Positions 27,079 to 54,292 of a stretch of DNA of 64,000 bases are shown here, piece after piece. This stretch comes from a virus. The notes under the pieces were generated by a model that saw nothing but the letters and a program-made list of their open reading frames with translations, ran no database searches and was not told where the DNA came from. The stretch spans positions 147,169 to 211,168 of IMG/VR virus record IMGVR_UViG_3300023181_000025, one strand, 5' to 3'. The translations under genes were made by a program, and so were the position numbers. Positions within the stretch are counted from its first letter, which is position 1. Each line of letters opens with the position of its first letter.

Positions 27079-27288
27079 ATGACTTTTCTAATTGCAGCTT
27101 TTATTTATTTAATCTGTTGGGCGGCGGCCTCATTTCTTGTTTATATTCTTTTTACGATTGATTTTCCAGAACCCAAAGAAAAGGGAAGAAACCTAAGAAC
27201 ATCTATAGTCTTTGGGTTCGGCGGGCCTATATCTTTATTGGTATCTTTACTTTTAGTATTTATTGAATGGCCCTTTAAAAAGAATTAA
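27079..27288 (+). CDS. Membrane protein with two segments, 69 aa
   Basis: Hydrophobic segments at about residues 3-26 and 46-64 joined by a loop with PEPKEKGRN. Function unknown. Confidence 0.72.
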   Translation: MTFLIAAFIYLICWAAASFLVYILFTIDFPEPKEKGRNLRTSIVFGFGGPISLLVSLLLVFIEWPFKKN

Positions 27289-27292
27289 TAAT

Positions 27293-27796
27293 ATGAAACT
27301 ACAACTCATAAACAAAACTGAATTTAACAAACTTTCCGCCGCCCAAAAGCGCGTGGCAATCGCAAAGGATGTTCTATTGCGAATTAAAAAGAAAAATATT
27401 AAGCAATACCAAGGTGATTTTTTCTTAAATAAAGAAGATATATTTGAAGAACTTGACGAAAAAGATTCTATTCAAGACGCAATCAACAGTTCGCAATGCG
27501 AAGTATGCGCAAAAGGAGCACTCGTTTGCTCATGGGTAGGAAATTTTAACAAAGTAAAAAAGGAAGATATCGAATCATTTGAGGTCAATTTGGTTTTTGA
27601 AGACGCGGCCCCTAAAGGATTGGTTAAACTTTTCGGGCGTGACATGCTTGATTCTATTGAATATAATTTTGAGGGCGAAGATTATGCTTGGACTTCCCAT
27701 AACGCTCTCAGAAAAGGTTACAATAAAAAATATAATAATAATTTGCGCGCTATTATGCAAAACATCATCGAAAACGAAGGCAAATTCATTCCTTAA
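27293..27796 (+). CDS. CEVCAKGA family copy 1, 167 aa
   Basis: Strong paralog of 32284. Shared blocks: AAQKRVAIAKDVLLRI, SQCEVCAKGALVCSWVGNF, KLFGRDMLD and EGKFIP at the end. A CxxC pair may bind zinc. The block resembles a group of short bacterial and phage proteins with CEVCALGA-like motifs; no function known. Confidence 0.85.
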   Translation: MKLQLINKTEFNKLSAAQKRVAIAKDVLLRIKKKNIKQYQGDFFLNKEDIFEELDEKDSIQDAINSSQCEVCAKGALVCSWVGNFNKVKKEDIESFEVNLVFEDAAPKGLVKLFGRDMLDSIEYNFEGEDYAWTSHNALRKGYNKKYNNNLRAIMQNIIENEGKFIP

Positions 27797-32066: not shown

Positions 32067-32273
32067 ATGAATAAACCATTTCTACTTATTGCGGGGCGTA
32101 ATTATTACCCCTGTGGCGGCACAGAAGATTGGATTGACCGTTTTGAAACAGAAGAACAGGCCAAAGAAGCCGTTATAATCGACAAATCAAGTAGCTGGGG
32201 CTACACCATTAATGGAAATTATTATGATTGGTTTTCAATAGTAAATCTTGACACTTGGCAAAAAGACAGTTAA
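32067..32273 (+). CDS. Conserved small phage protein, 68 aa
   Basis: FLLIAGRNYYPCGGTEDWIDRF then EEQAKEA is a pattern I recognise from many phage hypothetical proteins. Its C-terminal codons contain the next -35. Confidence 0.8.
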   Translation: MNKPFLLIAGRNYYPCGGTEDWIDRFETEEQAKEAVIIDKSSSWGYTINGNYYDWFSIVNLDTWQKDS

Positions 32274-32277
32274 ACAT
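32248..32277 (+). promoter_or_regulatory. Leaderless-type promoter
   Basis: TTGACA, 18 nt, AAACAT, then 6 nt to ATG 32284; weaker spacing. Confidence 0.45.
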
Positions 32278-32283
32278 ACCCCT

Positions 32284-32781
32284 ATGAAACTTATTGATAA
32301 AAAGACATTCAAATCTCTTACCGCCGCCCAAAAGCGCGTGGAAATTGCGAAAGACGTTCTGCTTCGAATTAAGAAGAAAATGGTGTCACCTACGGTGGGC
32401 CAGTTTTTTACTAATCTTGATGATGTTATAGGAGGCTTAGATTGGAAAGACTCAGTCCAAGAAGCCATCAATAATTCACAATGCGAGGTATGCGCCAAAG
32501 GGGCGCTGGTTTGTTCTTGGGTTGGAAACTTTAACAGGGTTAAGAAGAAAGATGTTGTAGGTTTCGATATAGATCTTAGATACGAAGATAGCTTTCCAAA
32601 ATCTTTGGTGAAACTATTCGGACGCGATATGCTTGATTGTATTGAAAACAATTTTGAGGGAATGGATTATGGCTGGGCCTCAAAAGAGGCAAGTAAACGA
32701 GGTATCCACCCTAAATATTGCGGGAATCTCGCGGCCATTATGAAAAACATTATTAAAAATAATGGCACATTCATTCCTTAA
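32284..32781 (+). CDS. CEVCAKGA family copy 2, 165 aa
   Basis: Paralog of 27293 with nearly identical blocks AAQKRVEIAKDVLLRIKKK, CEVCAKGALVCSWVGNF, KLFGRDMLDCIE and FIP end. Function unknown. Confidence 0.86.
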   Translation: MKLIDKKTFKSLTAAQKRVEIAKDVLLRIKKKMVSPTVGQFFTNLDDVIGGLDWKDSVQEAINNSQCEVCAKGALVCSWVGNFNRVKKKDVVGFDIDLRYEDSFPKSLVKLFGRDMLDCIENNFEGMDYGWASKEASKRGIHPKYCGNLAAIMKNIIKNNGTFIP

Positions 32782-47112: not shown

Positions 47113-47496
47113 ATGAAAACATACGCAGAAATACAGGGCGAGCCACCCTTTAATTGGTTTAATTTTTTGAGCCAAGAAAACATTTCATCCGAGGAATGGC
47201 AAGACGCTAAGATTAAATCAAGTTCATGGGTTACCTGCGCTTGTGGCAACCAATGCAGTATTATCCCTCGCTCAATTTACGGCGCGCCTCTTGATAATGA
47301 GCTAGAGGCATTAGGAGGGGGTCAAGGCTTTCATGGGGCAATCGAATTGAAGCTTAAAGGGGTGGCGCTGGAATACCTTAAACTTATTGAAAAAAGGTCC
47401 GCCTATTTGATCAAAAATATAAACGAAGAGATTGAAAGGGAGATTATGGATCATGAAGAAGAAATTAAAAGGCTCAAAAAACTACTTATTTCTTGA
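47113..47496 (+). CDS. Conserved phage protein with CACGNQC, 127 aa
   Basis: SSSWVTCACGNQCSIIPR followed by YGAPLDNELEALG is a combination I recognise from other phages; the Cys trio may bind metal. C-terminal coiled coil (INEEIEREIMDHEEEIKRL). Function unknown. Confidence 0.83.
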   Translation: MKTYAEIQGEPPFNWFNFLSQENISSEEWQDAKIKSSSWVTCACGNQCSIIPRSIYGAPLDNELEALGGGQGFHGAIELKLKGVALEYLKLIEKRSAYLIKNINEEIEREIMDHEEEIKRLKKLLIS

Positions 47497-47527: not shown

Positions 47528-47749
47528 ATGAAGGTCTTCTTATTTATGTCTTTTGTAGCAATTTGGCCTGTTTCTTGTCATGATAAGAACAAAAACCATT
47601 GCCCCGCGCCACCTCAAAAGCAGGTTTGCGAGCCTAAACCGCATTGCTATACTCAAATGCCCCTGATCGCGCCTGAGCCGTCCTTAGCTATGGGAAGCGC
47701 CTTTACATGCACGGTAATGCTAGGGGTTCTACGCAGGCGAAAGCCATAA
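47528..47749 (+). CDS. Secreted protein with PEP-CTERM-like tail, 73 aa
   Basis: N-terminal signal MKVFLFMSFVAIWPVSC (possible lipobox PVSC), a short Cys/Pro/Lys-rich middle (CPAPPQKQVCEPKPHC), and a C-terminus PEPSLAMGS, hydrophobic segment, RRRKP, which fits the PEP-CTERM sorting pattern (PEP, then a transmembrane helix, then Arg cluster). Such tails are processed by exosortase in Gram-negative hosts. A phage use of host exosortase would be unusual. Start ATG 47528 over GTG 47513 because the signal starts there. Confidence 0.75.
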   Translation: MKVFLFMSFVAIWPVSCHDKNKNHCPAPPQKQVCEPKPHCYTQMPLIAPEPSLAMGSAFTCTVMLGVLRRRKP

Positions 47750-47790: not shown

Positions 47791-48090
47791 ATGACTCGTC
47801 ACAAAAAGCTCATTGAGCAAATAACCTCTCTTGAAAGTTCAATTTCTCAAACTCCGGTGAAGGCAAAGAACGCACGGAAATTTGAGTTAGATTCTAATTT
47901 TGCTTTCCAGTGCGGCGAAATGTCAAGGGTTATAGATAAAATGCTTCCTATCGTAAATGAGTATGCTAATTTTGTTGGACATGGGGAAATTTATTTAAAA
48001 TGCGTTAATGCTTTGGAAACTTACCGGGATTTTCAGGAAAACAGATTAGCTTTTGTATCTGGGAAAGATTTCCCCGGAATTGAAGGTTAA
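47791..48090 (+). CDS. Hypothetical helical protein, 99 aa
   Basis: Mostly helical (KKLIEQITSLESSI, MSRVIDKMLPIVNEY). No family recognised. Confidence 0.76.
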   Translation: MTRHKKLIEQITSLESSISQTPVKAKNARKFELDSNFAFQCGEMSRVIDKMLPIVNEYANFVGHGEIYLKCVNALETYRDFQENRLAFVSGKDFPGIEG

Positions 48091-53399: not shown

Positions 53400-53573
53400 G
53401 TGAGTAATTACAAATCATTTGCCGAAAAGGTGAAAAAAGCAAAAACTTTAATTGATTTGAAAAAGCTGGGAGAATTGCTGACTCGTCTTTACGATGCCTG
53501 AGCTCTAACTATTTCAGAATTTCAACGGCTGGATGCCAAGATCATTGACGCGGAAATTTCGATGGCCGGGTGA
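53400..53573 (+). pseudogene. Small gene interrupted by in-frame TGA
   Basis: GTG start; the frame runs 57 codons with a TGA at 53499-53501. The halves SFAEKVKKAKTLIDLKKLGELLTRLYDA and ALTISEFQRLDAKIIDAEIS fit as one helical protein. Nonsense mutation, read-through or sequence error. Lacks its own clear promoter. Confidence 0.6.
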
Positions 53574-53581
53574 ATTAATTA

Positions 53582-53610
53582 TTGACTTCATAAGAACAAC
53601 CCATTAGCTT
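53582..53610 (+). promoter_or_regulatory. Leaderless-type promoter
   Basis: TTGACT, 17 nt, TAGCTT, then 7 nt to ATG 53618; preceded by GAATTAATTA. Confidence 0.55.
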
Positions 53611-53617
53611 CATTTAT

Positions 53618-53986
53618 ATGCAAAAAAACATTAAAGTTAATTCAGAAAAATCCGCAAAAACCATAATCGCCACGTTGAAAAAAATGGGATATGCGTGGCG
53701 CAGTAACCGCGTTCAATGGAGCACGAATTATCCAATCATTATTATTTCTTCTGAAAAGAAAGAAATGTGGGGAGATGACCACCATAATGTTGAAGGTGGA
53801 AAACAACTTTTTTGGCCCGAAGATGCGACCGAAATTCTTTCTGAGTCTATTGAAATTGAAATTCGCAATGTGGCGGGACATACTGCTGTAATTTCCGAAG
53901 CGAAAATTAAAGTGGGATGCCAGTTTGTGAGTTTTGAGAAATTTGACGAAATCGCTGAAGCCGTCAAGAAAGTTAGGGGCAGTTGA
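53618..53986 (+). CDS. Shared C-terminal module protein, 122 aa
   Basis: Unique N-terminus, then the module: VAGHTAVISEAKIKVGCQFVS, EKFDEIAEAVKKV. Closest relative by ending: 34947. The middle WPEDATEILS also recurs in 59595 as WPADATKILA. Confidence 0.82.
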   Translation: MQKNIKVNSEKSAKTIIATLKKMGYAWRSNRVQWSTNYPIIIISSEKKEMWGDDHHNVEGGKQLFWPEDATEILSESIEIEIRNVAGHTAVISEAKIKVGCQFVSFEKFDEIAEAVKKVRGS

Positions 53987-53995
53987 TAAAAAGTA

Positions 53996-54292
53996 ATGAA
54001 TTACACAGTTTCAAAAGCAAGCTGGGAAAAGCAAACTATTTATATCCTAGAAAACGGTTGGGTTCTTACCGAGGAACATAATCAATGTTATGGTTATTTT
54101 GTAAAAAGCTTGCGATCCCCACAAGGAAAAGTTTGGCTAGCCTGCAATGGCGATAGACACTTATATTATAATGAAGTGTTTAAAACAGATAAATATATCG
54201 CTTTGCCAGATTTTGCGGCTGGATGGAAGGAAACTAAATTCCCTGAGTTGGTTCGCTTTGATAAATCATTTTATAAAAGGATTGACAACTAA
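53996..54292 (+). CDS. Hypothetical protein, 98 aa
   Basis: Aromatic, beta-rich (NYTVSKASWEKQTIYILENGW). No family recognised. Its last codons (RIDN) contain the next -35. Confidence 0.75.
   Translation: MNYTVSKASWEKQTIYILENGWVLTEEHNQCYGYFVKSLRSPQGKVWLACNGDRHLYYNEVFKTDKYIALPDFAAGWKETKFPELVRFDKSFYKRIDN

Follow-up and report, generated by a model that had tools for sequence, protein, structure and literature searches.

The open reading frame (ORF) at positions 47528-47749 of the window probably encodes a small phage protein of 73 residues that is secreted and ends in a PEP-CTERM-like sorting tail. The large tailed phage that carries this ORF appears to encode two proteins of this kind. The window, which is the whole stretch of 64,000 nucleotides analysed here, corresponds to bases 147169-211168 of a virus record of 211,168 bases (G000). 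The record encodes a terminase, a DnaE-like polymerase, a ribonucleotide reductase and a tape-measure-type protein. For the most part it is collinear with the IMG/VR contig G005 (166 kb), and the protein identity is approximately 40-60% over the structural and replication genes. No near relative of G000 was found in INPHARED. G000 is a genuine tailed phage, which is large and previously undescribed.

Some other features of the genome were observed. Two ORFs at G000:C1:92355-93691 (L006:12355-13691), one of which encodes a DNA methylase (PF01555), share 95-98% identity with G005 in the parts that match; compared with the identity of 40-60% over most of the genomes, this suggests a recent exchange between G000 and G005. 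The ORFs at 27263-27796 and 32248-32781 of the window both match one G005 gene (located at about 163900) at approximately 38% each, and this suggests that a gene may have been duplicated in the window. TerC-family and TelA-family genes (tellurite/toxic-anion resistance families) are located side by side at L008:16882-19050.

The preliminary description had placed here an ORF with a signal-like start, a Cys/Pro-rich middle, PEPS, a hydrophobic segment and RRRKP, and all of these are present exactly at these positions (Table 1). The product translated from the ATG is MKVFLFMSFVAIWPVSCHDKNKNHCPAPPQKQVCEPKPHCYTQMPLIAPEPSLAMGSAFTCTVMLGVLRRRKP, and the stop codon is 47747-47749. A GTG located 15 nt upstream is also possible as the start. 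PEP-CTERM tails are defined by an almost invariant Pro-Glu-Pro, a stretch of approximately 14 residues that is strongly hydrophobic, and a basic end of five residues, and signal peptides are nearly always present in these proteins (Haft et al., 2006; PMC1569441). All three parts of the tail are found in the 73-residue protein. The 17 residues following the PEP contain no charged residue and no Asn, Gln, His or Pro, and they are followed by RRRKP. Residues 1-17 are signal-like according to a simple pattern and hydropathy only. The Cys residues at 17, 25, 34 and 40 are located in or ahead of the Cys/Pro-rich middle. The structure model is a single-sequence prediction of low confidence.

Table 1. 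Location of the 73-residue ORF, its parts and the PEP-CTERM gene of a second phage lineage
Feature	Position	Strand	Basis or remark
ORF with PEP-CTERM-like layout	47528..47749	+	73 aa, stop codon included
Signal-peptide-like N-terminus, residues 1-17 MKVFLFMSFVAIWPVSC	47528..47578	+	sequence, hydropathy; AlphaFold helix 3-12, low confidence
Cys/Pro-rich middle, residues 18-48	47579..47671	+	sequence; predicted disordered, pLDDT < 50 over most
Pro-Glu-Pro motif, residues 49-51 of 73	47672..47680	+	sequence; reads A-PEPS
17-residue non-polar stretch SLAMGSAFTCTVMLGVL	47681..47731	+	hydropathy; predicted transmembrane helix, AlphaFold helix 51-71, low to moderate confidence
Basic C-terminal end RRRKP	47732..47746	+	sequence
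FxDxF PEP-CTERM gene	G423:C1 about 53500-54041 (L128:7196-7687)		profile match

A signal-like start and a C-terminal helix with a basic end in a short, Pro-rich protein could also indicate a small bitopic membrane or lysis protein of the spanin type (outer-membrane or unimolecular), in which the PEP is incidental. The topology with an N-terminal signal and a C-terminal helix is known for unimolecular spanins. However, the Cys of the would-be lipobox is preceded by Pro at -3 (WPVSC), which breaks the lipobox, and a loose lipobox pattern was not matched. The linker is only approximately 30 residues long. No lysis family was recognized among the ten neighbouring proteins, most of which have no recognized family (a Pfam search with the ten gave no convincing match). 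The spanin explanation, which we regard as unlikely, also leaves the placement of the PEP and the second PEP-CTERM protein unexplained.

In order to describe the rarity of the layout, a strict layout rule was used, because a home-made HMM built from 31 bacterial tails separated the candidates poorly owing to local fragments and bias correction. The rule was composed after the candidate had been seen, and the resulting figures express rarity and not a blind test. Two of the 1240 ORFs (40 or more residues) of the phage's own record pass the rule, the 73-residue ORF and the ORF at 115412-116200 of G000, and both also have a signal-like start. The latter ORF had first been picked up by a looser pattern. 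None of approximately 4990 ORFs from other viral loci passed; the sole row found there, L035, is the phage's own locus. With shuffled tails, fewer than 0.005 passes are expected in the phage's own ORF set, against two observed. When the candidate's own tail was shuffled, the strict layout was passed once in 2,000,000. The PEP-CTERM layout proposed for this protein is real, and chance alone would give it far more rarely than it was observed.

A scan with the PEP-CTERM HMM, also proposed in the preliminary description, gave a mixed result. The tail scores close to the TIGR02595 cut-off of 16 bits and not far under it: the isolated 26-residue tail reaches 16.2 bits, and the tail with its flank reaches 15.3 and 14.9 bits, with the match covering positions 1-23 of 24. 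One scrambled control tail showed no TIGR02595 match. The PF07589 score of the tail (9.9 bits) is under the gathering score of 20.7, and the full-length protein matched no Pfam or NCBIfam profile. The TIGR02595 scan across the whole record reported only the second protein. A TIGR02595 match in G016 contained an in-frame stop and was rejected. As the formal profile scores are borderline, the 73-residue protein is termed PEP-CTERM-like only and is not filed as a confirmed member.

The tail of the 73-residue ORF alone would be a borderline case; the case is strengthened by another PEP-CTERM-type protein that this phage encodes. This protein (G000:C1:115412-116200; L007:15412-16200) is encoded outside the window. 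It has 262 residues, a clean signal-like start and a choice-of-anchor A domain with scores of 80.2 bits on TIGR04215 (cut-off 29) and 93.6 bits on PF20597 (cut-off 23.8). Its C-terminus is SVPEPSVFGLAIVGGLVTCGKRRR, and the tail scores 13.2-15.1 bits on TIGR02595 against the cut-off of 16, and 13.6 against 20.7 on PF07589. The protein aligns end to end, tail included, with bacterial choice-of-anchor A proteins, one of which is encoded on a Halotia plasmid, and most of the aligned proteins end with VPEP, a helix and RRR. Judging from its sequence, the second protein is the clearer PEP-CTERM surface protein of the phage, probably of the adhesin/lectin type. The gene is inside the phage genome, because the genes on both sides (112574-113008 and 117444-118475) have homologues in G005. 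It is located directly downstream of an 88-residue lipoprotein-like ORF (115109-115375). No other viral copy was detected in IMG/VR using the choice-of-anchor A protein and a nine-member alignment. Choice-of-anchor A homology has been mentioned beside a phage tail-fibre gene (PMC5135824); that context is different, as the protein described here has a signal peptide and a sorting tail. Scans of G005 detected neither the 73-residue protein nor the choice-of-anchor A protein. Thus both genes look as if they were acquired by the G000 lineage.

The genes flanking the 73-residue ORF are on the same strand in a dense run of small genes. One ends at 47496 and the next begins at 47791, and the gap contains no other ORF of 40 or more residues. 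The codon score of the 73-residue ORF is in the lowest 1% among real 219-nt gene segments, and it is in the lowest 10% when only synonymous codons are considered. These codon statistics are weak and give no clear support for coding. It may be considered that the ORF is not a gene and arose by chance in the intergenic gap, since its low coding score is equalled by 32-39% of spurious ORFs, and an ATG ORF as long as 73 codons appears in 1.8% of shuffled gaps. A chance ORF is, however, improbable in view of the combination of a signal with the PEP-CTERM layout, the rarity of which among tail shuffles is given above, and of the other PEP-CTERM-type gene that the genome carries.

The GC content of the ORF is 0.477, compared with 0.391 for the window. 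This value and the poor codon score are as compatible with a gene that was acquired recently or has decayed as they are with a functional one. No homologue of the 73-residue protein was found in IMG/VR, INPHARED, the genome contigs or the related phage G005. Its only IMG/VR match (L001) is an antisense chance match inside an SbcD gene; an INPHARED match (H42, Caulobacter phage CcrBL10) is antisense to annotated genes; and a genome-contig match (L011) is DXP reductoisomerase, named from its sequence. The atypical codon use and GC, the lack of a homologue in related phages and the tiny middle would all be expected if the ORF were the remnant of a host PEP-CTERM gene or a fragment captured from one recently, with the signal joined to the tail, the middle lost and the product not selected for function in the phage. 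Nevertheless, the frame is intact with start and stop, the signal and tail are complete, and the second intact PEP-CTERM gene shows that the phage keeps such proteins. There is little probability, in our judgement, that the ORF is such a remnant, and we prefer the small secreted protein with a PEP-CTERM-like tail.

Similar tails were sought in other phages, as the preliminary description had suggested, and were found. IMG/VR was searched with a codon-restricted pattern scan and an ORF filter. An FxDxF-family PEP-CTERM protein of 163 residues is encoded, in identical form, on the contigs G423 (113 kb) and G425 (90 kb), which are derived from different metagenomes. It scores 100.9 bits on NF038126 (cut-off 50) and 26-30 bits on TIGR02595. 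In G423, the gene is located among T4-like phage genes for the tail tube, tail sheath, head closure and head-tail adaptor. The full-score PEP-CTERM protein in this T4-like contig pair indicates that the trait is not a one-off, and phage-borne PEP-CTERM proteins occur in at least two unrelated lineages. Two further contigs were not counted: the prophage contig G424, in which the PEP-CTERM gene is at the contig end beside an integrase and may be host flank, and G426, a 5.3-kb fragment. A tblastn search of INPHARED with a generic PEP-CTERM tail detected nothing, the 28-residue query being insensitive. In the open-licence papers searched, no account of phages using the exosortase/PEP-CTERM pathway was found, in agreement with the earlier statement that no described use was known.

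A search of the phage record detected no exosortase, and therefore any sorting must use that of the host. The choice-of-anchor A domain is present in ten of 399 Pseudomonadota genomes, nine of which also have PEP-CTERM proteins over the threshold. Exosortase is present in all ten, compared with 8 of 20 other genomes (one-sided Fisher test, approximately 0.0015). Because of this association, the second PEP-CTERM protein would point to an exosortase-bearing host, for which it is strong support. The interpretation offered in the preliminary description, a tail targeted by the exosortase of the host, is supported in part. A Shine-Dalgarno motif precedes 17 of the 171 ORFs of G000 and 13 of the 142 of G005, and the starts are preceded by A-rich sequence. 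An RlpA-like (DPBB_1), lipoprotein-like protein is encoded by the phage at L007:9996-10373. The scarcity of Shine-Dalgarno motifs and the RlpA-like and other lipoprotein-like ORFs fit a two-membrane host without identifying it. For the NAMPT of the phage, the best phage matches are at approximately 46% or less, and among the matches listed with a named host, all are from Gram-negative bacteria.

From these sequences, we infer that the phage surface proteins are most likely sorted by the host exosortase. At the first step, the phage protein would be exported by the host Sec pathway. Then the protein would be anchored in the inner membrane by the C-terminal helix and RRRKP, and its PEP would be located at the periplasmic face. 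At the third step, the host exosortase would cut at the PEP, and the protein would be released or transferred to the surface or the exopolysaccharide. The choice-of-anchor A (lectin-type) protein may thus coat the surface of the infected cell. The phage would probably benefit from a change in the surface or matrix of its host, such as a shield against superinfecting phages or a different aggregation of the cells. Phage lipoproteins that block superinfection are described in PMC9586334. T5 Llp is a lipoprotein of this type, and the analogy would make superinfection exclusion or altered aggregation the likeliest benefit. A surface coat that binds carbohydrate is plausible, because an Acanthamoeba choice-of-anchor A lectin binds cellulose and, more weakly, chitin (PMC6541295), and a link between PEP-CTERM proteins and exopolysaccharide has been described (PMC1569441). 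The role of the 73-residue Cys/Pro-rich protein itself is less certain.

The two PEP-CTERM-tailed genes in the phage suggest that phages can borrow the host exosortase to put their own proteins on the cell surface. On balance, we favour the general explanation that tailed phages whose hosts possess exosortase use their own PEP-CTERM proteins and the host exosortase to remodel or shield the infected surface and exopolysaccharide, and that this occurs in at least two unrelated lineages. If this is true, a widespread and poorly understood Gram-negative sorting pathway is also used by phages, and these proteins are a natural substrate set for tests of exosortase function. A PEP-CTERM gene in a phage would imply an exosortase host and serve as a host-prediction marker. 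Phages would also have a new route for altering the biofilm matrix or blocking competing phages.

The phage case resembles the known PEP-CTERM system (TIGR02595/PF07589, exosortase/EpsH; PMC1569441) in the PEP, the hydrophobic helix, the basic end, the signal-like start and the presence of more than one copy per genome. The 73-residue protein differs from the known members in that it is phage-encoded, has a very short Cys/Pro-rich cargo, and is at or just below the TIGR02595 cut-off and below that of PF07589. The second phage protein shares its domain order with the choice-of-anchor A PEP-CTERM proteins of Pseudomonadota and Cyanobacteria (TIGR04215/PF20597), and its tail aligns with theirs, whereas it is phage-encoded and shows approximately 23-33% identity to the aligned bacterial members. 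The FxDxF protein of G423 and G425 (NF038126) is likewise a PEP-CTERM protein within a tailed-phage genome, but the phage lineage and the cargo domain are unrelated to those of G000, and the HMM scores are strong. T5 Llp offers a proposed analogy, as it is phage-encoded and displayed in the envelope via a host sorting route; it uses the lipoprotein pathway and not exosortase, and has no sequence relation to the G000 proteins.
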